Origin: a virus
Length of the DNA: 64,000 nucleotides
IMG/VR virus record: IMGVR_UViG_3300035703_000045
Span: 29,045-93,044 of that record
Strand: one strand, 5' to 3'
The position numbers were made by a program, and so were the translations under genes. This document shows positions 3,590 through 28,664 of this stretch, piece by piece. Position 1 is the stretch's first letter; each line of letters starts with the position of its first letter. Below the pieces are notes generated by a model. The model worked only from the letters and a program-made list of their open reading frames with translations. It had not been told where the DNA came from and made no database searches.

Positions 3590-3816
3590 GATGACTTCTT
3601 CGTTCCGTACATGGCGACCGACTGAATTTGGTCAAGAAGCCATGCTGATGCCTCGTTAATACCATCCTGTGAAACAATGTCCCAACTCTGCCAAAGAGTG
3701 CAGTGCTTCTCCTTCAACCACTCCCTGATCAGATCTTGGGTGATGGATACATCTTGGGTTTCGTTAAGTACGTCGTCCATGGACGGGAACTTATCAATTA
3801 TCTTGGCTGATGTCAA
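3586..3816 (-). CDS. hypothetical protein
   Basis: 76 residues, no recognised family. Mixed helical content with Trp residues in REWLKEKH and TLWQSWD. The start overlaps the end of the TGT-like gene by 23 bases, and the end is GTGA-coupled to the small membrane protein, which supports it as an operon member. Confidence 0.6.
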   Translation of the reverse strand: MTSAKIIDKFPSMDDVLNETQDVSITQDLIREWLKEKHCTLWQSWDIVSQDGINEASAWLLDQIQSVAMYGTKKSS

Positions 3817-5230
3817 TCACTGATTGAATAAAACGGTCAGTTTGATTTGCGTTCATACCGCCACCATCCAGTTGACGGGCGGTATCCCCTGCTCGTTGAC
3901 CAAACAGCCTAGAAAGTACTCCTGAACTTCCACGGGCTTCAACTTCAATACGCATCATATCCCGACTATCAGATATGTTCTTAAACCTATCAATGAGGGA
4001 GAACAGGCGATCCATCTCCGAGGATAGGGCTGGGTCAATACCCTGACCCTCCAGTTCTTCAGCAAACCGAGCGAACAAAACACGGCTTGCCTGCATCTCA
4101 ATCATGGCTTGCAGTACTGCGGTCAACTGATCCTTTGTACGGATCTCAACAGGTAGACGAAACCCACATTCTGAATTCTCTTGGAATGCAGGACAACGGC
4201 TGGCTAGATAGCAACTATTGCACTGTCGCAGAGGGTTGCTCTGATACCTAATAACAGGTGTCTCTTGAGGGTCAATTTCTATTAATTCTCCCTGCTCAGA
4301 GTGGGTTTGTGTACCCATTGAGAGCAGGTGTTCAATACCCATAACCGGTAGCAACATACGGTCACTGTCGTGCCTCTTTTGTACTGGGGGTATATCAACA
4401 TTTGTACCCTTCGGAACCATAGAAAGCCCACTTGGGGTTGAGGGGGATATATTAACTATTTCCCCATCTTCAGAGTTTACAAACTCATTCTCATCATCCG
4501 CTGGGGATGGGTCATAGCCCCCAAATGTACGCTCCTCCCACTGCAACCACGAGCGGATTGCAAGGGTTCCCACAGCGTCAACACTGTCCTCCATAACGGC
4601 TTCGTAGTCCACTCCGAGGCGCATGATGTCGGGGCGATGCTTCTTGCGTGATGACTCTTTCTGCTGGGCTGGGTACCGTCGTAGACCATGACCATCCCAT
4701 ACCTGAGTCTCGCCGTACCGGATAGCAGATGTCCATGATCCGACGACCACAACCTCCCATGGCAGGGCTTCAATGATGTCAGGTTTACTTGTTAAACCGA
4801 ACAACTTGGTGTCCCAGCGGTTTGAAAGCGAACGAATGCGAGGAAGAGTTTTAGTATCAATAGCCTTATCAGATATAGCAACACGCCCATATCGCTGGCA
4901 TATCCAAGCGAGACGCTCTAAATCGTCACCGGCGTTCCAAACTGGGATGTACTTGTCTCCAAGCCAGTCGCCGTCCATGTCGGGGCGACCAATTACATAG
5001 GTCAAATAGTCGGCGTACTCACGCACAAAGTCTGTATACCCCGTCAGGTTCTCGTCACCTTCGCTGGTGTAGACCAGCAGTTCCGCTCCAGCAAACACAA
5101 CAGAAGGGTCAAACTCTTTCCGTTTGGGAACAGGGAGATGAGTGACATTGACACCCATTCTTTGTACATTGTTAGCAATCAGGAGGTTTCTGTGGGTGCC
5201 TTTCTCGGCTCCACCTAGAAAGATTCTCAT
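3794..5230 (-). CDS. TGT/DpdA-like N-terminal domain fused to Cys-rich helical domain
   Basis: 478 residues; the ATG at 5230 has GGAG at proper spacing and forms an ATGA junction with the HAD-like gene (a GTG at 5242 is rejected). Residues about 1-230 resemble the TIM-barrel of tRNA-guanine transglycosylases and phage DpdA relatives: MRIFLGGAEKGTHR at the start, a KYIPVWNAGDD strand, and KLFGLTSKPDIIEALPW followed by GSWTSAIRYGE, the place where DpdA has its Ser-x-Asp-Ser/Thr-x-x-Trp segment. After an acidic linker (about 240-330) comes a Cys cluster, CNSCYLASRCP then SECGF, probably metal-binding, and a helical domain rich in Met/Arg. I could not identify the TGT catalytic aspartates or the TGT zinc site with confidence, so the activity may be altered. 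The family call is an inference from motif resemblance. Confidence 0.6.
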   Translation of the reverse strand: MRIFLGGAEKGTHRNLLIANNVQRMGVNVTHLPVPKRKEFDPSVVFAGAELLVYTSEGDENLTGYTDFVREYADYLTYVIGRPDMDGDWLGDKYIPVWNAGDDLERLAWICQRYGRVAISDKAIDTKTLPRIRSLSNRWDTKLFGLTSKPDIIEALPWEVVVVGSWTSAIRYGETQVWDGHGLRRYPAQQKESSRKKHRPDIMRLGVDYEAVMEDSVDAVGTLAIRSWLQWEERTFGGYDPSPADDENEFVNSEDGEIVNISPSTPSGLSMVPKGTNVDIPPVQKRHDSDRMLLPVMGIEHLLSMGTQTHSEQGELIEIDPQETPVIRYQSNPLRQCNSCYLASRCPAFQENSECGFRLPVEIRTKDQLTAVLQAMIEMQASRVLFARFAEELEGQGIDPALSSEMDRLFSLIDRFKNISDSRDMMRIEVEARGSSGVLSRLFGQRAGDTARQLDGGGMNANQTDRFIQSVIDISQDN

Positions 5231-5700
5231 TCTTCTCTCCACGCTTTCTCAGCCATCTTTACTGCCTGATTGTCCATTTCCTCAACCATGGTATCCCATT
5301 CTTTGATGACACGCCCACCGTCCCATTCCGGTCGGATGATGTACGGGCAGGCAACTAGGAGAGTAGGAATGCCCAGTCTCAAGGTTTCGGCGCAGGTACG
5401 GGGGTCATTGTCAATGTACCAATCAACCTTTCCAAAGACAGCAGAGATTCGGTGAACCTTCTCAGCCCTCAAGTTGGGGCTTGGTTCATCAAGGATCTCA
5501 TAGAAGGAAGGCTTGAACCCCTCCTTCTTTAGCCAGTGCTCAATGATCGGACGTTCGTAGTCTTCATTGATAATGACGCACATACGCCCTATGGAGTTAT
5601 CAAATAGGGCATTCCATATCTTGCGTCCGTCAGGATCAGGCTGGCGTAGAGCGAGTGTCTCAGCAGGGCGAGCCAGTACGGAGAAGTTGAACAGAATCAC
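5227..5700 (-). CDS. HAD-like phosphatase-fold protein
   Basis: 157 residues starting at a GTG that overlaps the upstream stop (GTGA). KVDWYIDNDPRTCAETLRLG (about 95-114) matches HAD motif IV, with its acidic pair, followed by a Gly-Ile-Pro-Thr-Leu strand; similar phage proteins are annotated HAD-like. The N-terminal aspartate nucleophile motif (DxD) is not obvious, so catalysis is uncertain. It sits between the zinc protein and the TGT-like protein, all coupled. Confidence 0.55.
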   Translation of the reverse strand: MILFNFSVLARPAETLALRQPDPDGRKIWNALFDNSIGRMCVIINEDYERPIIEHWLKKEGFKPSFYEILDEPSPNLRAEKVHRISAVFGKVDWYIDNDPRTCAETLRLGIPTLLVACPYIIRPEWDGGRVIKEWDTMVEEMDNQAVKMAEKAWREE

Positions 5701-21246: not shown

Positions 21247-22793
21247 TATACTCCCGATTCTCGTAAGAAGGTTGAAAGACTGCTGAGGGTGATATCCATG
21301 CCACCCTTACCGTCATGGTGTTTACCATCAACAAAGGCTTCGTTGACGGATCGTTTGTGCTGAAGCATCTCGTATTGGCGTTCTTCAATTGACCCCTGCA
21401 TAACGAACGTAGCAATCGTAACATGCGGAAACTTGGAAGACAACCTAATAATTCGTGCTTCTCGTTGTTCCAACTTACCGCTACTCCAAGGTAAGTCATA
21501 AGATATCAGGTAGTTAGCCATCGGAAGGTCAACACCGTACCCACCGGCATCCGATGAAAGGAACAGACGGGTATTGGGATCGGTAGAGAACTGTTGCTTT
21601 GCCTCATCACGTTCTTCAGCCGACATGCCTCCCATGAATAAAACACTGTTAGTGAGTTTGGCTGTTGCCTTTTGTATGAGGCGCAGATTCTCTTTAAAGA
21701 ATGAGAACAACACCACTTTGTTATCGGGGTGTTGATAAAGAACATCTTCAATGTACTCAACGACTGCGTCTAGTTTCGGGGTGGCGGTAACCCCTGTCAG
21801 CAACCCAGCCTTGACCAAGGTAGCCGCATAGCGACTTCCCTCGTCTGGCTTGGTGTTGTCGTTGTACAAACCAGCCGACCTAACGATGAGTTCTGGGTTG
21901 TCGCAAAGCATCCTCAAGACGGTGAGACGAGACATGATCTCCCCTTGCGCCTCATTGGATTGTGGGTCGTTGTAGTGCTTCCAGATGTTGAACGCCCCAC
22001 CATGCATGCTCATTGCTTGATGGAGATGGTATAACAGATCTTCTGATATCTTACGATACAGCCCTGCCCCACGGGTATCATATGGGATCGGAATGGTCTG
22101 GTGGACAATGTCCGGCAATTGGTCGGCAATGTCCTCCCGTGTCTTACGAATCATGCACTCTGACATGGACTTATGCAAAACAGACAAGTTTCGGTAACGA
22201 GTAGGTTTTCCGAAATAGTCTCTGACGATGAAAGTACGGTCAAACTCGTCAAACTTACCAAGGACTGTTGGGTCAACAAACTCCATAATAGAATACAGTT
22301 CTTCTGGGCGATTCTCAATGGGTTGTCCTGTCAAAGCATACCGGTAGAGGATTGGCTTTGATATACGTTTGATCATTCGTGATCTCTTACTTGTGCGGGA
22401 CTTCAACATCGTGGCTTCATCCACTACAATGCATTGACAGGGGGTGCGCTTGAGAAACTCTTGGTCTTTGATCAGTGACTCAGGGTTCACGATGATGTAC
22501 TGAGCCGATACTGCCCCACGCCATGATTTCTCCCGTGCTTTGGGTGAGCCGTCAATTAGGGCAACACGGGAATCAGTAAACCTTTCTATCTCACGCTTCC
22601 ATTGGTACTTAAGGGAAGCAGGGACGACCACCAAGCAACGGTCAATCTCCCCAAGTTCAAACAAGCGATTTACGGCGGCGATTGTGGTGACCGTCTTACC
22701 AGCACCCATGACCAATCCAAGTAGCACTTGACCACGGTCAAGCATCTTCTCAACTGATTCTTCTTGGTAGGGATACAGAGTTCCGTTAAACAT
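21246..22793 (-). CDS. SNF2-type superfamily 2 DNA helicase/translocase
   Basis: 515 residues. Q-like LYPYQEE at the start, Walker A MGAGKT (Lys33), DEAT box (125-128), SAT-like LTGQP, and in the second RecA domain LFSFFKENLRL, SSDAGGYGVDLP and motif VI QREARIIRLSS. The expected SNF2 motif VI is QAxxRxxRxGQ; here the Gly-Gln is replaced. Phage relatives act in recombination-dependent replication (compare T4 UvsW, another SF2 enzyme). Starts 8 bases inside the primase end. Confidence 0.88.
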   Translation of the reverse strand: MFNGTLYPYQEESVEKMLDRGQVLLGLVMGAGKTVTTIAAVNRLFELGEIDRCLVVVPASLKYQWKREIERFTDSRVALIDGSPKAREKSWRGAVSAQYIIVNPESLIKDQEFLKRTPCQCIVVDEATMLKSRTSKRSRMIKRISKPILYRYALTGQPIENRPEELYSIMEFVDPTVLGKFDEFDRTFIVRDYFGKPTRYRNLSVLHKSMSECMIRKTREDIADQLPDIVHQTIPIPYDTRGAGLYRKISEDLLYHLHQAMSMHGGAFNIWKHYNDPQSNEAQGEIMSRLTVLRMLCDNPELIVRSAGLYNDNTKPDEGSRYAATLVKAGLLTGVTATPKLDAVVEYIEDVLYQHPDNKVVLFSFFKENLRLIQKATAKLTNSVLFMGGMSAEERDEAKQQFSTDPNTRLFLSSDAGGYGVDLPMANYLISYDLPWSSGKLEQREARIIRLSSKFPHVTIATFVMQGSIEERQYEMLQHKRSVNEAFVDGKHHDGKGGMDITLSSLSTFLRESGV

Positions 22794-23709
22794 TTTGAAT
22801 CCACGGTGGCATGACGGTCGCTGTTTTAAGACCGTTCTCTATTTCGTCGTCAGTCATATCCCCGATATCCTTTGCTGAGGTTCCAGCATAGTTCCACCAC
22901 AGCAACCCTTTTCGTGGACGATTCATGAATTTGTACAACTTCTTACTGGATTCAATACCAGCCTCGTCGTTGTCCATAGCCACAATAACACGATCAGCGA
23001 CATGGGTTACTAAGTGCATCTGGTCTTTTGAGACCTGTGCTCCGAAGGTGGCTAAAGCCTGTGGCTTTTCAAAGACCCCAGCAAATCGGATGATGTCCAA
23101 TGGGGACTCCACCAAGATGGCTGTGCGTGAGCGAAAGCGTTCTATACCAAACAGGGTTTTTCCCTTTTCTACGCCTACGGGGAAGTTGCGTACCCACCCA
23201 GTCTTCTTTTCCTGCCAGCCATCTAAACGACCAGTGGCAGACATGATCGGGATCGCCCACGCCTTTGACTTGGGATTCCAACGGACTCCATATCGGTGTA
23301 CCAAGTCTGGGTCTAGGTTCTTGAAGGCACACTTGGCATCGGACACACGGTCAAACCGAAAGAAAGCATCCCGATCCACATAGACAGTTTCCTCACCCTC
23401 TTTGGGAAGGGTGAGATTATTGAAGTTCGTGGAAACCAAGAACTTCTGTATTTCAAGACCGGCTTCAATCCCAGTCAGTTCTGCCAGTAGTGACGAGAGT
23501 GTTCCACGGGCACCGCATGAAAAGCAGATCCATAGACCAGTGTTGGCGTTGATACTCCAAGAAGGTGAGCGGTCTTCACGCCCCACAGTGCGTATGTGTA
23601 CTGGGCATTTGCCGGTGATTTCCCGATCACCGACACGCTTTAGTTCTACTCCTACGGACTGTAGGACTTCTGCGAGGTTAGTCGTATGAGGGGTTGATGT
23701 TTGAGTCAT
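22786..23709 (-). CDS. DNA primase (CHC2 zinc finger plus Toprim)
   Basis: 307 residues. Zinc site Cys35-x2-His38...Cys62-x2-Cys65. Toprim motifs: VESPLD (Glu201) and VIVAMDNDEAG (Asp246, Asp248). This is DnaG architecture without the C-terminal helicase-binding region; the helicase is a separate upstream gene whose end overlaps by 31 bases. Makes RNA primers for lagging-strand synthesis. Confidence 0.9.
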   Translation of the reverse strand: MTQTSTPHTTNLAEVLQSVGVELKRVGDREITGKCPVHIRTVGREDRSPSWSINANTGLWICFSCGARGTLSSLLAELTGIEAGLEIQKFLVSTNFNNLTLPKEGEETVYVDRDAFFRFDRVSDAKCAFKNLDPDLVHRYGVRWNPKSKAWAIPIMSATGRLDGWQEKKTGWVRNFPVGVEKGKTLFGIERFRSRTAILVESPLDIIRFAGVFEKPQALATFGAQVSKDQMHLVTHVADRVIVAMDNDEAGIESSKKLYKFMNRPRKGLLWWNYAGTSAKDIGDMTDDEIENGLKTATVMPPWIQNV

Positions 23710-24931
23710 AGTCGTTTATCTCTTCAAACTCCATCGTTGACCAATCCCACTTAACGTGGACTTCTCCAGTTGGGGCAGTACGAGCGAGCACAACACGGAT
23801 GATTGCTTGATCATCCATATCTGGGTTGCGCTCCACACCGAGAATCAGGTCAGCATCTTGGGCAAACGAAGAGGTGTATCCGATTGCGTCAGCAGTCACC
23901 GCACGGGTCTTTCGGTTTTGGAGTTTCCATGAGAGAACCTGAGTGGTGGCTACGACAGGAATATCAAACCGTTGTGCTAACCGTTTCAAAGAACGAGTGA
24001 TGTTGGTCAATGCCTGTGGTGATCCCTTTGGCTCACCTTCCTCGTCGTCCATCAAATACACACCGTCAACAAACAGAACGTCAGGGTTGTACTCCTGAAT
24101 CTTTCCTGCGAGGGCACTAACAGTCGTAAGCGATGATGTGTCTTCACTGAACACGAAGGGTTGCATGTGCTTGCGTAGCGACAAGGCTTGACGAATCTTC
24201 TTCATATCATCCTTGTTAAGGTCACCACTAAGAATGCGTGTGTATGGAACCTTGGATATCAGAGAGTCATAACGTGCTTCTTGTTCCTCAATACTCATTT
24301 CAAAGGAAACGAAGAGGGGCCGTTTCCCGTGGATGTGTGAGGAATTAGCGAGAATAAGAGCGAAGAGGGACTTACCACGCTTGGGTTCACCGGCAAAGAC
24401 GATGAACTGCTGTGGACGTAGTCCGTGGGTAATTCGGTCAAGCCCATGGAATCCGGTAGGAATGCCACGAAGAGCATTGGGTTGTTGACGCATCTCATCG
24501 TAACGAGCAAGGCGGTTCTCCCAGTTCTGAATGATGTCAATGTCACGAAGACGTGATGCCTCTACCGAGGATTTCTGAATGGCTGACGACAACGAACTGA
24601 TAGCAGTGTTGATGTCGTTGTCATTGATTGCTGGAATAGCAGACGACAAAGCGTCAACGATGATTCGCTGACGGTAAGAGTCAAACACCTCATCCAGCAG
24701 ACGGGAGAATGTCTCGTCAGTTGCGTCTTCTAGTTGGATGTCCCCGTACTGTTGGCTGAACACACGGTCTGTAGGAAGAGCACCATGGGTGCGGTTGAAG
24801 TCAAGCAACCATTCCCAGATGGGTGACCACGTTGATGAGAAGTGGTCAGGCTTGAGTCCTGCACGAACCGGGGTATTGATGTCTTTCTCTTGAATGATCT
24901 TTGAGATAAGTAAGAGTTCGCTAGACGACAT
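23678..24931 (-). CDS. replicative DnaB-like helicase
   Basis: 417 residues from the ATG at 24931 (TGATG junction). N-terminal helical domain, then the RecA-like ATPase: IPTGFHGLDRITHGL, Walker A GEPKRGKS (181-188), SFEMSIEEQEARY, Walker B VLFVDGVYLM and an ATTQV motif. DnaB/gp41 family hexamer that unwinds the fork. It neighbours the primase and the DnaC-like loader. Confidence 0.92.
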   Translation of the reverse strand: MSSSELLLISKIIQEKDINTPVRAGLKPDHFSSTWSPIWEWLLDFNRTHGALPTDRVFSQQYGDIQLEDATDETFSRLLDEVFDSYRQRIIVDALSSAIPAINDNDINTAISSLSSAIQKSSVEASRLRDIDIIQNWENRLARYDEMRQQPNALRGIPTGFHGLDRITHGLRPQQFIVFAGEPKRGKSLFALILANSSHIHGKRPLFVSFEMSIEEQEARYDSLISKVPYTRILSGDLNKDDMKKIRQALSLRKHMQPFVFSEDTSSLTTVSALAGKIQEYNPDVLFVDGVYLMDDEEGEPKGSPQALTNITRSLKRLAQRFDIPVVATTQVLSWKLQNRKTRAVTADAIGYTSSFAQDADLILGVERNPDMDDQAIIRVVLARTAPTGEVHVKWDWSTMEFEEINDYDSNINPSYD

Positions 24932-25374
24932 CAAATGCTCCACGGCTTGTCAGGGCTGACAACTTTACCACGCAATCCAAGAATTGAAGAGTAGTCCTCA
25001 TGTGGTGTGTAGACAACCGCAATAGAACGGTCGTAGACCAAGTCACTTGCGAACTCAATAATTGATGGGTACCACAAAACTGGGGTGCTTACACCTTTAC
25101 GGATTAGCCACTTCTCAATTGGATCAACCGCATCAGGGGAAAGGAAAGTGATGACATGAGTAGCGATGCCCCGCCGGTTAACGCAATCAGAGAGCGACCG
25201 CATCGGCATATCATGAACAGTCCATAGGGGTATCACAGATGACCAGTCAGATGTTCGCTTATGGTAAGCACCCTTAACCTTGCCAACGATGGTTGATGGT
25301 GGGGATGCAAGAACTCCTTCAAACATGGTGACCTGTTTGATACGGGACACGGGATGAATGTCGTTCTTTTCCAT
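24931..25374 (-). CDS. hypothetical protein between helicase and loader
   Basis: 147 residues; TGATG junctions on both sides, so strictly coupled to helicase and loader. Alpha/beta appearance: HVITFLSPDAVDPIEKWLI and SIAVVYTPHEDYSSILGLRG suggest a Rossmann-like fold with a C-terminal aspartate, but no catalytic motif. Could be a HAD-like remnant or a replication accessory protein. Confidence 0.6.
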   Translation of the reverse strand: MEKNDIHPVSRIKQVTMFEGVLASPPSTIVGKVKGAYHKRTSDWSSVIPLWTVHDMPMRSLSDCVNRRGIATHVITFLSPDAVDPIEKWLIRKGVSTPVLWYPSIIEFASDLVYDRSIAVVYTPHEDYSSILGLRGKVVSPDKPWSI

Positions 25375-25982
25375 CAGGCGATCCGAATACCCGTCATGTC
25401 AGAGACTGCTACGGCAATGCGGTCACCATACCGACGAGTGAAGTCAATCTGTGACAGCGTCGTGGTGATGATCGTCGTACGAGAGTCCTCATAACGACGA
25501 CGAATCAAAGAACCCACCTCATGGACTGAGTAATCGGTTTGACGTTCCTGCCCGACACCATCTAGCACCACGACATCAAAGACACCTTGGATGTACTTCA
25601 AGAGGTAAGGCATTGAGTACATCTCTGGGAGAAGACCATTGTCTCCTTCAAAGGAATCCTTCAGCATGTCAATGTAGCGGTCTGCGCTAATGAACCGACC
25701 TGACACGCCTTTTTCACGAATCAGGTACTGAAGGATCGCCTGTGAGGTAACACTCTTTCCACTGCCGTTGACACCGGTCAGGATCAGTGAGTTACCAAAC
25801 TCGTAGTTGTGAACCCAGTGGTTGATTGACTTCATCGCCTTGTCGGAAATGGTCAGGTCATCTAGCCCGATAGAACGCCAACGATTGGGTACCCGAGAAT
25901 GGAACATGCGTTCGTCTACGGGGCGATTACGCCACCACTTCTCCGACTTCCAGTCGGTCGGAACAACATATGTCTGTGACAT
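25374..25982 (-). CDS. DnaC/IstB-like AAA+ helicase loader
   Basis: 202 residues; ATG with AAGGAG 4-5 bases upstream. Walker A GVNGSGKS (about 69-76), Walker B VVVLDGVG (about 137-144), sensor-like TIITTTLS and DRIAVAVSDM with the conserved arginine region. DnaC-type proteins deliver DnaB to the origin. Position next to the initiator matches the lambda O-P and dnaA-dnaC-like arrangement. Confidence 0.85.
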   Translation of the reverse strand: MSQTYVVPTDWKSEKWWRNRPVDERMFHSRVPNRWRSIGLDDLTISDKAMKSINHWVHNYEFGNSLILTGVNGSGKSVTSQAILQYLIREKGVSGRFISADRYIDMLKDSFEGDNGLLPEMYSMPYLLKYIQGVFDVVVLDGVGQERQTDYSVHEVGSLIRRRYEDSRTTIITTTLSQIDFTRRYGDRIAVAVSDMTGIRIA

Positions 25983-25990
25983 GGAACTCC

Positions 25991-27217
25991 TTAGTTACGA
26001 TTGATGCGTCGGTAGTTGTACACAGCAGAAACTATGCTATCTGCCGCTGGTCTAATGCTCTGTTTTGTTGTTGACAGCAATTCTTTTGGCAATGGAATAT
26101 CAGATAATGTTGAATGTATATCTGATACATCAACATCTTCCTCATCCAAATGCCAGCGAACCAGTGAGTTTAAAGCACTCAACATGGGCTGGAAGTTCGG
26201 GGTATCAAACGATGTGTCAATGATACTAGCCACCAACTCAGGGTAGCGGTAGGAGGCATCTAATCCACGGAGGATGACAGCCTGCTGGATCACACTGTCA
26301 AAGGCATCATTCCACGGAAGGTTGATACCTGACCGGTCAAAGTCTGACATCAGGAACCGCAGGGTCACTCCCATGTCGTCATCCAACGTGACTGGCATGT
26401 TCTCCATGAGACTGGTCTGTACTGACTTGGTGCAAAACATGAGCACGGGGGAGTCGGCTTTGATGAACCGTTCGTTGGTGAAAAACCGGTCAATCATTCC
26501 CTTGATGGTGGGTCGGGTAAGACCACCGTCAAGTAGTAACCGGATGTTGCGCCGAAGGATGTTCATGTCCTGAAAGGTGTACGAGCAGTTCATGACAGAC
26601 CGTGGATGGTAGACGAAGTAGTTCGTCAGGTCGTTGACCTCTGGGCGTGGCTTCCGTTTGGTTTCTGACTGCTTGGTCTGTTCAGGTTTGTCTGGGTCTG
26701 CCCCAATGATCATGTCGCCCTCGGCCCTCTTTAATAATTCTCTATGTATCTCTTTATCTATTATTACTCTATGGTTTTCGTTTTGCTGGTCACACGCTGG
26801 AGTTTCTTTGATTTCAATAGGGTCATGGGTGACCCTATCAACCTCATTGGATAGGGTCATGGGTGACCCTATAATAGGGTCATGGGTGACCCCATATGGG
26901 GTCATGGGTGACCCTATTACCTTCTGTGTATAATGCACTTTATATACCGAAGATGCGGGGCGTGGTCGTCGTACAATATTAATGATGTGGTGTTGTTCCA
27001 ACCACTTCAATGACCGCTTAACAGTCTCTTTGGAAGTGCGTGATTTGATGGCGATGTCGGAAATGGAAGCGTCAATCTCTTTGGTGTTGAGGCTCATCAT
27101 GGACACCAACGTGACCAGAATCTGCAAGTCTCGGGGTTGCCCGTGCTCGTTGATGTAGTCCACGGACCACTCAGGAACAGCAATAAATCTACCCCCGAAG
27201 ACATTACTGGTTCCCAT
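25991..27217 (-). CDS. replication initiator-like protein containing iterons
   Basis: 408 residues from an ATG at 27217; a GTG at 27259 would extend it by 14 codons. Neither has a good ribosome-binding site, so a leaderless transcript is possible. N-terminal winged helix (about 35-95): SISDIAIKSRTSKETVKRSL then WLEQHHIINIV, as in phage replisome organisers. A linker encoded by four iterons (GSPMT and VTHDP repeats) follows, and a C-terminal helical domain (about 190-408). The order - DNA-binding domain, iterons inside the gene, loader next - is that of lambda O. Assigned by architecture, not by close similarity. Confidence 0.75.
   Translation of the reverse strand: MGTSNVFGGRFIAVPEWSVDYINEHGQPRDLQILVTLVSMMSLNTKEIDASISDIAIKSRTSKETVKRSLKWLEQHHIINIVRRPRPASSVYKVHYTQKVIGSPMTPYGVTHDPIIGSPMTLSNEVDRVTHDPIEIKETPACDQQNENHRVIIDKEIHRELLKRAEGDMIIGADPDKPEQTKQSETKRKPRPEVNDLTNYFVYHPRSVMNCSYTFQDMNILRRNIRLLLDGGLTRPTIKGMIDRFFTNERFIKADSPVLMFCTKSVQTSLMENMPVTLDDDMGVTLRFLMSDFDRSGINLPWNDAFDSVIQQAVILRGLDASYRYPELVASIIDTSFDTPNFQPMLSALNSLVRWHLDEEDVDVSDIHSTLSDIPLPKELLSTTKQSIRPAADSIVSAVYNYRRINRN
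26728..26917. other. candidate origin of replication
   Basis: The iteron array (26817-26917) lies beside an AT-rich stretch (about 26728-26786, e.g. TTTAATAATTC and TTATCTATTATTAC), both inside the initiator gene, with the AT-rich part on the 3' side of the gene as in phage lambda. That is the expected layout of a binding array plus DNA-unwinding element. Function is inferred. Confidence 0.75.
26817..26917. repeat. four 22-bp palindromic iterons
   Basis: Units at 26817-26838, 26851-26872, 26874-26895 and 26896-26917. Each is a 9-base arm ATAGGGTCA, a spacer TGGG and the matching arm TGACCCTAT. Copies 1 and 2 are perfect; copies 3 and 4 differ only at the outer arm they share (CCCAT and ATGGG). 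Units 2-4 are spaced 22-23 bp, about two helical turns, so a protein would bind them on the same face. Confidence 0.95.
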
Positions 27218-27305
27218 GAGGTGGAGGACGTTATCACCTTTTTTGTCCCTCTGCAACACACGTCACAGAGTGATATTCTGTAATTTGCCGAGCACTGGAG
27301 ACAAA
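27218..27305. promoter_or_regulatory. divergent intergenic region
   Basis: The only divergent gene pair in the window meets here: initiator operon leftward, Dps island rightward. Two promoters must lie in or near these 88 bases. GATATTCTG (27272-27280) is a possible rightward -10 region, without a convincing -35. The Dps ribosome-binding site GGAG is at 27297-27300. Confidence 0.5.
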
Positions 27306-27740
27306 GTGAAAGATTTAATTAAATCGCTGAAAGTGGTCATGTCCGATGTAGTTACTTTCTACTTCATGGCTCATGGGTACCATTGGAACGTGGAAGGTCA
27401 AGACTTCAGCCAGTACCACTCTTTGTTCTCCGACATCTATGAGGATGTGTACGGTTCCATTGATCCACTTGCAGAAAACATCCGCAAACTTGACGACTAC
27501 GCACCTTTCAACCTTCAGAAGTTTATTGATCTACGAACCATTGAATTCAAGGATGTACAGCCAAGTCCAAAGGCAATGGCTGGTTCTCTGATGAAGGCTA
27601 ACGACATCTTGCTTGAGCGTCTTAACGAAGCGTTTGATCAGGCAACTAAAGATAAACAGCAGGGCATCGCCAACTTCCTTGCTGACCGCATTGATATGCA
27701 TATGAAATGGCGTTGGCAACTTAAAGCATCAACGAAATAG
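27306..27740 (+). CDS. dps: Dps-like ferritin
   Basis: 144 residues from a GTG with GGAG 5 bases upstream; the upstream in-frame extension reaches into the divergent gene and is rejected. HGYHWNVEGQDFSQYHSLFSD-like pattern (His23, His26, His38 and following Asp/Glu) is the Dps ferroxidase signature, and a four-helix bundle is predictable. Dps dodecamers bind DNA and oxidise iron using peroxide. A phage copy could protect or compact DNA. First gene of the rightward island. Confidence 0.85.
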   Translation: MKDLIKSLKVVMSDVVTFYFMAHGYHWNVEGQDFSQYHSLFSDIYEDVYGSIDPLAENIRKLDDYAPFNLQKFIDLRTIEFKDVQPSPKAMAGSLMKANDILLERLNEAFDQATKDKQQGIANFLADRIDMHMKWRWQLKASTK

Positions 27741-28631: not shown

Positions 28632-28664
28632 GAAAAACCCCTAGCCGTGCGCTAGGGGTTTTTC
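28632..28664. terminator. bidirectional Rho-independent terminator
   Basis: A perfect 14-bp stem, GAAAAACCCCTAGC with GCTAGGGGTTTTTC, and a 5-base loop, with A-run and T-run on either side so it works in both directions. It separates the rightward island from the leftward late operon. Confidence 0.92.

Follow-up and report, generated by a model that had tools for sequence, protein, structure and literature searches.

A probable replication origin inside the initiator gene of an uncultured phage, with phased palindromic iterons and a TpA-rich stretch

Can a repeated palindrome, translated as part of a replication gene, be the site at which that gene's product starts replication? The question is raised by a stretch of 64,000 nucleotides (the window), taken from an uncultured virus record of 93,044 bp (IMG/VR record IMGVR_UViG_3300035703_000045), where an earlier note, made from the sequence alone, had proposed a lambda-O-like replication origin inside the initiator gene. 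The comparisons described here indicate that the palindromic array, along with the AT-rich stretch next to it, is very probably a phage replication origin embedded in its own initiator gene; as a conserved, origin-like element it is real. The features of the region are the following.

25991..27259, minus strand: initiator gene, 422 aa, likely start ATG at 27217; predicted N-terminal winged helix, linker, helical C-terminal domain
27011..27034, minus strand: recognition-helix octet SKETVKRS, residues 76-83; residue 81 (K) covaries with the half-site
26817..26838, no strand assigned: iteron unit 1, ATAGGGTCATGGGTGACCCTAT
26851..26872, no strand assigned: iteron unit 2, ATAGGGTCATGGGTGACCCTAT
26874..26895, no strand assigned: iteron unit 3, ATAGGGTCATGGGTGACCCCAT, one outer base different
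26896..26917, no strand assigned: iteron unit 4, ATGGGGTCATGGGTGACCCTAT, one outer base different
26728..26777, no strand assigned: AT-rich, TpA-rich stretch, candidate unwinding element, on the gene's 3' side of the array
25374..25982, minus strand: DnaC-type AAA+ helicase loader, next gene (phrog_50 E 1.3e-20, IstB PF01695 1.3e-6)
24931..25374, minus strand: conserved gene, 147 aa, function unassigned, between loader and helicase
23678..24943, minus strand: DnaB-type replicative helicase
22786..23709, minus strand: DNA primase

The array unit is GGGTCA-TGGG-TGACCC; the four units span 26817-26917, each lying inside a 22-bp near-palindrome, and occupy codons 115-147 of the ORF at 25991-27259 (minus strand). 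The four palindromes with a TGGG spacer, reported in the earlier note, are found in the initiator frame: their inner 16 bp, GGGTCATGGGTGACCC, are exact in all four (starts 26820, 26854, 26877 and 26899), while the full 22-mer is exact in two, one outer base being changed in each of the others. Unit 3 ends in CCCCAT and unit 4 begins with ATGGGG. Allowing up to three mismatches, the unit is matched five times in the window, four of the matches being the array units, versus 0.67 +/- 0.79 times in shuffled sequences; none of 100 shuffles reaches five. The window contains 46 perfect 6+4+6 palindromes, and the array arm is the only one to occur more than once. No further exact copy of the unit was found in the whole 93,044-bp record.

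In the structure model of the initiator, a winged helix (residues 28-112) is followed by a low-confidence stretch (113-168) and then by a helical domain; the array codons fall within the low-confidence stretch and presumably encode a disordered linker. The winged-helix N-terminus anticipated for this protein is supported by the predicted model, which for residues 28-112 has many winged-helix fold matches at Z 8-10. Sequence matches of the window protein to HTH_36 and PHROG replication-initiation families are weak (E 5e-5 to 0.06; 0.03-0.06 for the O-like phrog_678/391), and no Pfam family is found in it at E up to 0.1. For the family as a whole, phrog_270, a phage replication-initiation family, is matched by 12 of 14 members, and the O-like phrog_678 by 10 of 14 (best 5e-8). 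The C-terminal domain is modelled with pLDDT 87. A known fold was sought for it and rejected, the PDB matches listed being weak: the best of them, a lambda P chain (Z 5.6 over 77 residues), is not significant. No match falling in this domain was obtained from whole-protein scans of the Pfam and PHROG libraries; its single strong viral-library match, an HTH protein, is probably a family member. Residues 183-190 (window 26690-26713) form a (M/P)I(L/F)GADPD motif, near-invariant in the alignment within an otherwise variable linker, which could be a docking site for loader or helicase.

The initiator gene is the first of a replication operon, in the order initiator, DnaC-type loader, 147-aa gene, DnaB-type helicase, primase, SNF2 helicase; a PolA-type polymerase and RecA are encoded further along. 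This agrees with the earlier description, where the loader was placed next to the initiator and the helicase two genes on, and the phage was credited with its own polymerase, primase and RecA. A tail-sheath protein, also encoded, supports a contractile tail. Other observations concern the rest of the window. A Dps/ferritin-like gene (27216-27740) is divergent from the initiator gene, and adjoins it in many relatives. Past several small genes in a row, at 28632-28664, two perfectly complementary 14-bp arms around a 5-nt loop, with a T-rich end, resemble a terminator. A queuine tRNA-ribosyltransferase-like gene is found at 3794-5242 (phrog_887 E 1.6e-41); such genes can be part of phage deazaguanine DNA modification.

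Conservation of the palindromes was evaluated in relatives sampled by peptide patterns outside the array: a search with the initiator profile gave 63 loci, a search with the loader 27. Loci lacking the N-terminal part of the initiator (ORF shorter than 340 aa or missing) were left out (2 of 63 and 4 of 27), and relatives were scored positive from two units upwards, a single mismatch being allowed in the arms of a unit. Units are present in all 23 relatives found through the loader, and in 58 of the 61 found by the profile, a sample not fully independent of the array because 12 of the 14 profile rows came from the array scan (as did all 8 rows of the GTGTCA-member profile described below). Of the 63 profile loci, 37 lie on contigs also present in the array scan; the N-terminal part is available for 24 of the other 26 contigs, with units in 21 and a swapped type in 3. 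The palindromes are kept although the initiator protein drifts to 27-56% identity, as expected by the earlier note for a functional site.

In the three relatives without units (L148-L150, alike), a C-terminal domain of the family's kind is preceded by a different N-terminus, of HTH_36 type (E 2.9e-15 in L148); where the array would be, L148 carries three copies of CACCAACGGGCGGACA, with spacings of 22 and 23. Since a different HTH and a different repeat are found at the same place, along with the C-terminal domain of the family, a joint exchange of DNA-binding domain and iteron seems to have taken place. The N-terminus of these proteins (L148:2509-3762, L149, L150) resembles those of proteins of Microcystis, Arthrobacter and Pseudomonas phages.

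No isolate of the family was found by tblastn with the window protein or with L087. With L148, 34 records were retrieved, none over 80% of the protein, and the 15 matches listed cover only its first 77-145 residues: no full-length homolog was thus found among isolates by tblastn with three members. The replication region gave no blastn match against phages. The Streptomyces phages BRock and GiJojo have the loader, helicase and primase genes in common with the window, as well as one more helicase gene; no exact repeated palindrome was found in the stretches of them that were read. A wide family alignment, intended for an unbiased scan, was dropped as too diverse.

Arrangement of the units was analyzed in a set obtained from 131 family ORFs, 120 of them full-length, which reduce to 24 at 90% identity. 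All but one of these carry an array, of three or four units, for a total of 79 units called with up to two arm mismatches (57 exact). The 56 start-to-start spacings all measure 22/23 (28), 33/34 (19) or 44/45 bp (9), falling on about two, three or four helical turns with a period near 11.1 bp; the genes being homologous, neither these counts nor those of the reading frames, reported next, represent independent events. Eleven distinct spacing layouts are observed among the relatives. As to reading frames, 32 units are in frame 0, 46 in frame 1 and one in frame 2, where the TGA of the arm becomes an in-frame stop; the single frame-2 unit (L140) has AGA there.

The AT-rich stretch, which the earlier note had placed next to the palindromes, towards the 3' end of the gene, was confirmed: positions 26728-26777, with 78% A+T, are the most AT-rich 50 bp of the initiator gene. 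The 50-bp segments located up to 130 bp from the array were compared for A+T content: in 23 of 23 array-bearing genes the richest one begins 34-48 bp past the array and belongs to the top 1% of such segments of its gene, being the gene maximum in 20 (all but L146, L031 and L057). Codon usage was compared, in the array-bearing relatives, between the zone 38-92 nt past the array and the rest of the gene. Within the zone, valine is encoded by GTA in 30 out of 30 cases (rest of the gene: 23% of 641), isoleucine by ATA in 73% of 62 (16% of 459), arginine by AGA in 58% of 31 (15% of 553), leucine by TTA or CTA in 76% of 38 (25% of 765). AAT for asparagine (70% vs 32%) and GAT for aspartate (62% vs 42%) are higher too; glutamate and lysine codons show no shift between zone and rest. 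TpA steps seem therefore to be favoured over A+T alone, because GTT is as AT-rich as GTA, and ATT as ATA. Tandem TAR trinucleotides are likewise frequent on the coding strand (26 versus 11.8 +/- 3.3; none of 300 shuffles reaches this count), with no enrichment on the other strand (5 versus 3.7). Such a switch among synonymous codons is an exceptionally clear mark of selection acting on the DNA itself, in favour of an unwinding element within a gene.

A further candidate for a general part, a conserved hairpin past the AT stretch, was rejected: long perfect repeats are present in 6 of 24 relatives only. These six (L146, L151, L153, L163, L006, L012), mutually alike, have, directly past the AT-rich stretch and about 58-92 nt from the array on its 3' side, perfect inverted repeats whose arms measure 15-16 bp. 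L148 has inverted repeats of 10 and 7 bp past its AT stretch; 5-6-bp stems elsewhere are near chance. In the window no inverted repeat of at least 5 bp was found 3' of the AT stretch, and the folding energy of this part is not unusual in most relatives.

Two other indications gave a different outcome. The TATAAT hexamer reported to abut the array does exist (26929-26934); a role for it is not supported, as it is found in one of 23 relatives, namely the window itself, and promoter-like matches in the array region do not exceed expectation (1 versus 1.5 in shuffles). It was rejected as part of the system, and looks like a chance feature. Cumulative GC skew, indicated as a check by the earlier note, gives no support to an origin here: it has its minimum near 24 kb of the record, the array being at 55.9 kb, and was rejected as evidence because it is uninformative, ranging only from -109 to +290 (the SD of a random walk of the record's length is about 210, by our own estimate).

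The relation between the recognition helix and the palindrome arms was then considered. Within the initiator family, TVKR goes with GGGTCA, TVIR (L087/L145) with GTGTCA and TVQR (L133/L141) with AGGTCA; members with SPSTVKRS or SQSTVKRS have one arm TGACCT or another one-base change. IMG/VR was scanned for paired units: GGGTCA-N4-TGACCC was found on 55 contigs, the GTGTCA type on 73, the AGGTCA type on 3 (two being those of L133/L141, while the third array runs off the contig end) and a shuffled arm on one, which also overlaps an O-like HTH gene. Viral arrays mostly fall within a winged-helix ORF or immediately 3' of it: 54 of 56 for GGGTCA, window included, and 55 of 73 for GTGTCA, while the same HMM matches 13 of 4492 ORFs located away from arrays in these viral loci. 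In cellular genomes, 4 of 17 GGGTCA pairs are at winged-helix genes (one marginal, L100) and 13 elsewhere. GCGAGCGGGGTCAnnnnTGACCCCG-type palindromes were observed away from winged-helix genes in Thermoguttaceae and Planctomycetota MAGs (L089, L090, L093, L096, L099). Two viral contigs (L026:1630, L040:4864) contain paired GGGTCATATATGACCC units outside any ORF, probably sites of another regulator.

When the HMM-aligned ORFs were clustered at 70% identity (L100, a marginal match at E 0.014, is in no cluster), Lys occupies the covarying position in all 20 GGGTCA clusters versus 4 of 23 GTGTCA clusters; the latter have Ile in 9, Met in 4, Val in 1, Gln in 3, Tyr in 1 and Ala in 1. The association of a hydrophobic residue with GTGTCA has a Fisher p of 1.1e-5, kinship being ignored. 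A peptide pattern outside both helix and array, seeded with eight GTGTCA members, retrieved 88 relatives; the 80 retained yield 45 unique winged-helix sequences, with Ile, Met or Leu in 45 of 45. The leading half-site, callable in 36 of the 45, is GTGTCA in 27 and a variant (GTGTCT, GTGACT, GTGACA or GTATCT) in 9; GGGTCA is not present among the leading three half-sites of any of the 45. Lys and Gln occur with GTGTCA too, in other lineages, which argues against a simple rule.

On the tree, which omits L104 and matches above E 1e-4, at least six half-site changes are placed, giving three independent pairs on supported branches and six on all branches: a non-Lys residue goes with GTGTCA in 2.9 of the 3 supported pairs, a hydrophobic one in half. 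The sign test on independent pairs is not significant, because too few of the changes are independent. A clean statistical proof of a helix code was accordingly rejected: by groups, the strictest cut gives Lys in 7 of 7 versus 2 of 9 (p 0.003) and looser cuts are not significant, the test shrinking because blastp linkage merges most proteins. The relation, as far as sequences indicate, is suggestive of something broader than one family. It is plausible, if somewhat short of probable, that iterons of their own, just past the winged helix, are found in many phage initiators from unrelated contexts, with one helix position largely setting base 2 of the half-site (Lys: GGGTCA; Ile or Met: GTGTCA). 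Were this the case, a single uninterrupted DNA cassette might carry origin specificity, which could be read from it and exchanged with it, and protein sequence might serve to predict the cognate origin of an uncultured phage. Among the matches listed in topic searches, which covered mainly papers outside subscription, there was no paper on this half-site rule. At least one of six iteron words occurs in 285 papers; the 20 listed contain none of the four 16-mers, their matches being to the two 9-letter words.

Similar arrangements were noticed outside the family. Gene O of the E. coli K-12 phage mEp554 (L253:1441-2427) has a TAMR helix and four GTGTC-N5-GACAC iterons with spacings of 23, 22 and 23, and offers a cultured test case for the relation between helix and half-site. 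Other repeats are found just past the HTH of initiator-like genes in Nostoc phage Nsp-JY10 (L252) and in the Arthrobacter phages Decurro, Bolt007 and Bumble (L251, L249, L254), in part read by eye, pointing to a general habit. A further set (L255-L334) is composed of short proteins, many of about 160-190 aa, with a GPF..P.W winged helix, GTGTCA-type arrays and little beyond the array: possibly, these are split initiators.

Explanations other than an origin have to be weighed against these data. That the repeats are kept for the protein, as a repeated linker peptide, or derive from chance expansion, is hardly credible. They are indeed translated, yet the two frames in use yield different peptides, GSxxT and VTxDP, and it is the DNA that stays constant: the N4 spacer takes 21 forms among the 79 units (CCCA in 25), whereas 26 out of 948 arm positions differ in units called at up to two mismatches. 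Chance expansion is, in turn, at odds with the shuffled-arm control, which gives one contig versus 55.

The two remaining alternatives accept a DNA site, and assign it a different role. According to one, the array is an operator of the same protein, used for autorepression or as a transcription road-block of its own operon, and not an origin. Palindromic dimer sites are typical of winged-helix operators, and HTH matches by sequence and fold include CRP and MarR-type regulators; this reading is nonetheless improbable, as the sites are located about 300 bp inside the coding region rather than at the gene start, no conserved promoter was found near them, a TpA-rich stretch follows at a fixed distance and the gene heads a replication operon. 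The two roles, operator and origin, could coexist. According to the other, a partition (centromere) or packaging site is situated in the initiator gene by chance. The winged-helix centromere-binding proteins pNOB8, AspA and TubR are among the fold matches, but no partition gene is present among the 20 window proteins scanned, the terminase is 27 kb from the array, and the AT-rich element and the helicase-loader neighbours fit an origin: this possibility appears even more remote than the operator. The reading of the locus as an origin inside the initiator gene, in contrast, is supported by palindromes which are conserved, helically phased, followed by an unwinding-type stretch and tracking the recognition helix.

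How such an origin would work may be sketched by analogy with lambda, iteron plasmids and RepA_N systems. The winged helix of the initiator would most likely bind each palindromic unit as a dimer, each GGGTCA half-site being contacted by a single recognition helix. Aligned on the same side of the DNA, three or four such dimers would pack into a compact, phased nucleoprotein array, and the strain of this array would open the TpA-rich stretch, 34-48 bp onwards in the gene; there the phage DnaB helicase would be placed by the DnaC-type loader together with the initiator's C-terminal domain. On this reading, a likely origin is located for a group of uncultured phages, the 23 array-bearing clusters at 90% identity. 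Since relatives keep the layout, and a change of helix goes with a change of site, the family is a good, though not unprecedented, system for the study of origin choice: natural matched pairs of a DNA-reading helix and its DNA site make the choice of origin by initiators, and its change, directly testable.

An origin inside the initiator gene is of an already known kind, to which the window system adds a member. The products are mislabelled in the lambda sequence record used for comparison, and the gene names O and P are those of PMC7466680 and of general usage. As in the window, in lambda O four iterons with dyad symmetry lie in the middle of the initiator gene, an AT-rich stretch is found 3' of them and a loader gene comes next; iterons start at 348 nt in lambda O and at 345 nt in the window (303 from the likely ATG), and the spacings are comparable (20/24/23 in lambda, 22/23/34 in the window). 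Iteron sequences differ, and so does the position of the AT-rich maximum (+4 versus +42). The term "lambda-O-like", used in the earlier note, holds for the layout and not for the partner, which is a P-type loader in lambda and an AAA+ DnaC-type loader in the window; the window phage, unlike lambda, also has its own helicase, primase and polymerase. In PMC7466680, the lambda origin is described as inverted-repeat iterons in mid-gene O with an AT-rich tract; phased iterons and opening of the lambda origin are treated in the review PMC5043065. Origins within or next to repA are suggested for mycobacteriophages in PMC7157519. The phage initiators with HTH_36 (PF13730) share with the window protein a winged-helix N-terminus.

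RepA_N plasmids are similar in another respect. For pSK41, PMC5703833 reports that a winged helix of about 120 aa, at the N-terminus of Rep, binds four Rep boxes central in rep, and that the origin encodes the linker, the C-terminal domain being separate. In the window, too, the boxes are central in the gene and encode the putative linker (codons 115-147), binding by the protein being putative; the RepA_N domain (PF06970) has no match in the window protein at E up to 0.1. As to the DnaD-like C-terminal domain of RepA_N initiators, the comparison yielded, for the modelled C-terminal domain of the window protein, no significant PDB match among those listed. RepA_N iterons are semi-palindromic, according to PMC7145576. 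An Amphibacillus RepA_N gene contains three GGGTCAAATATGACCC units; in five other RepA_N-type plasmid genes considered no GGGTCA array was found, four featuring other repeats and one none. Exchange of modules has precedents as well: PMC5703833 describes pPR9 Rep as a natural chimera with a pfam13730 N-terminus, and PMC8263062 reports that RepA_N domains and origins covary as modules in PLE satellites. Both resemble L148, in that a new DNA-binding domain comes with its cognate origin and the C-terminal domain is retained. The PLE origin is, however, intergenic, whereas in the window family helix and iterons lie in one contiguous frame, and single residues are paired with half-sites.
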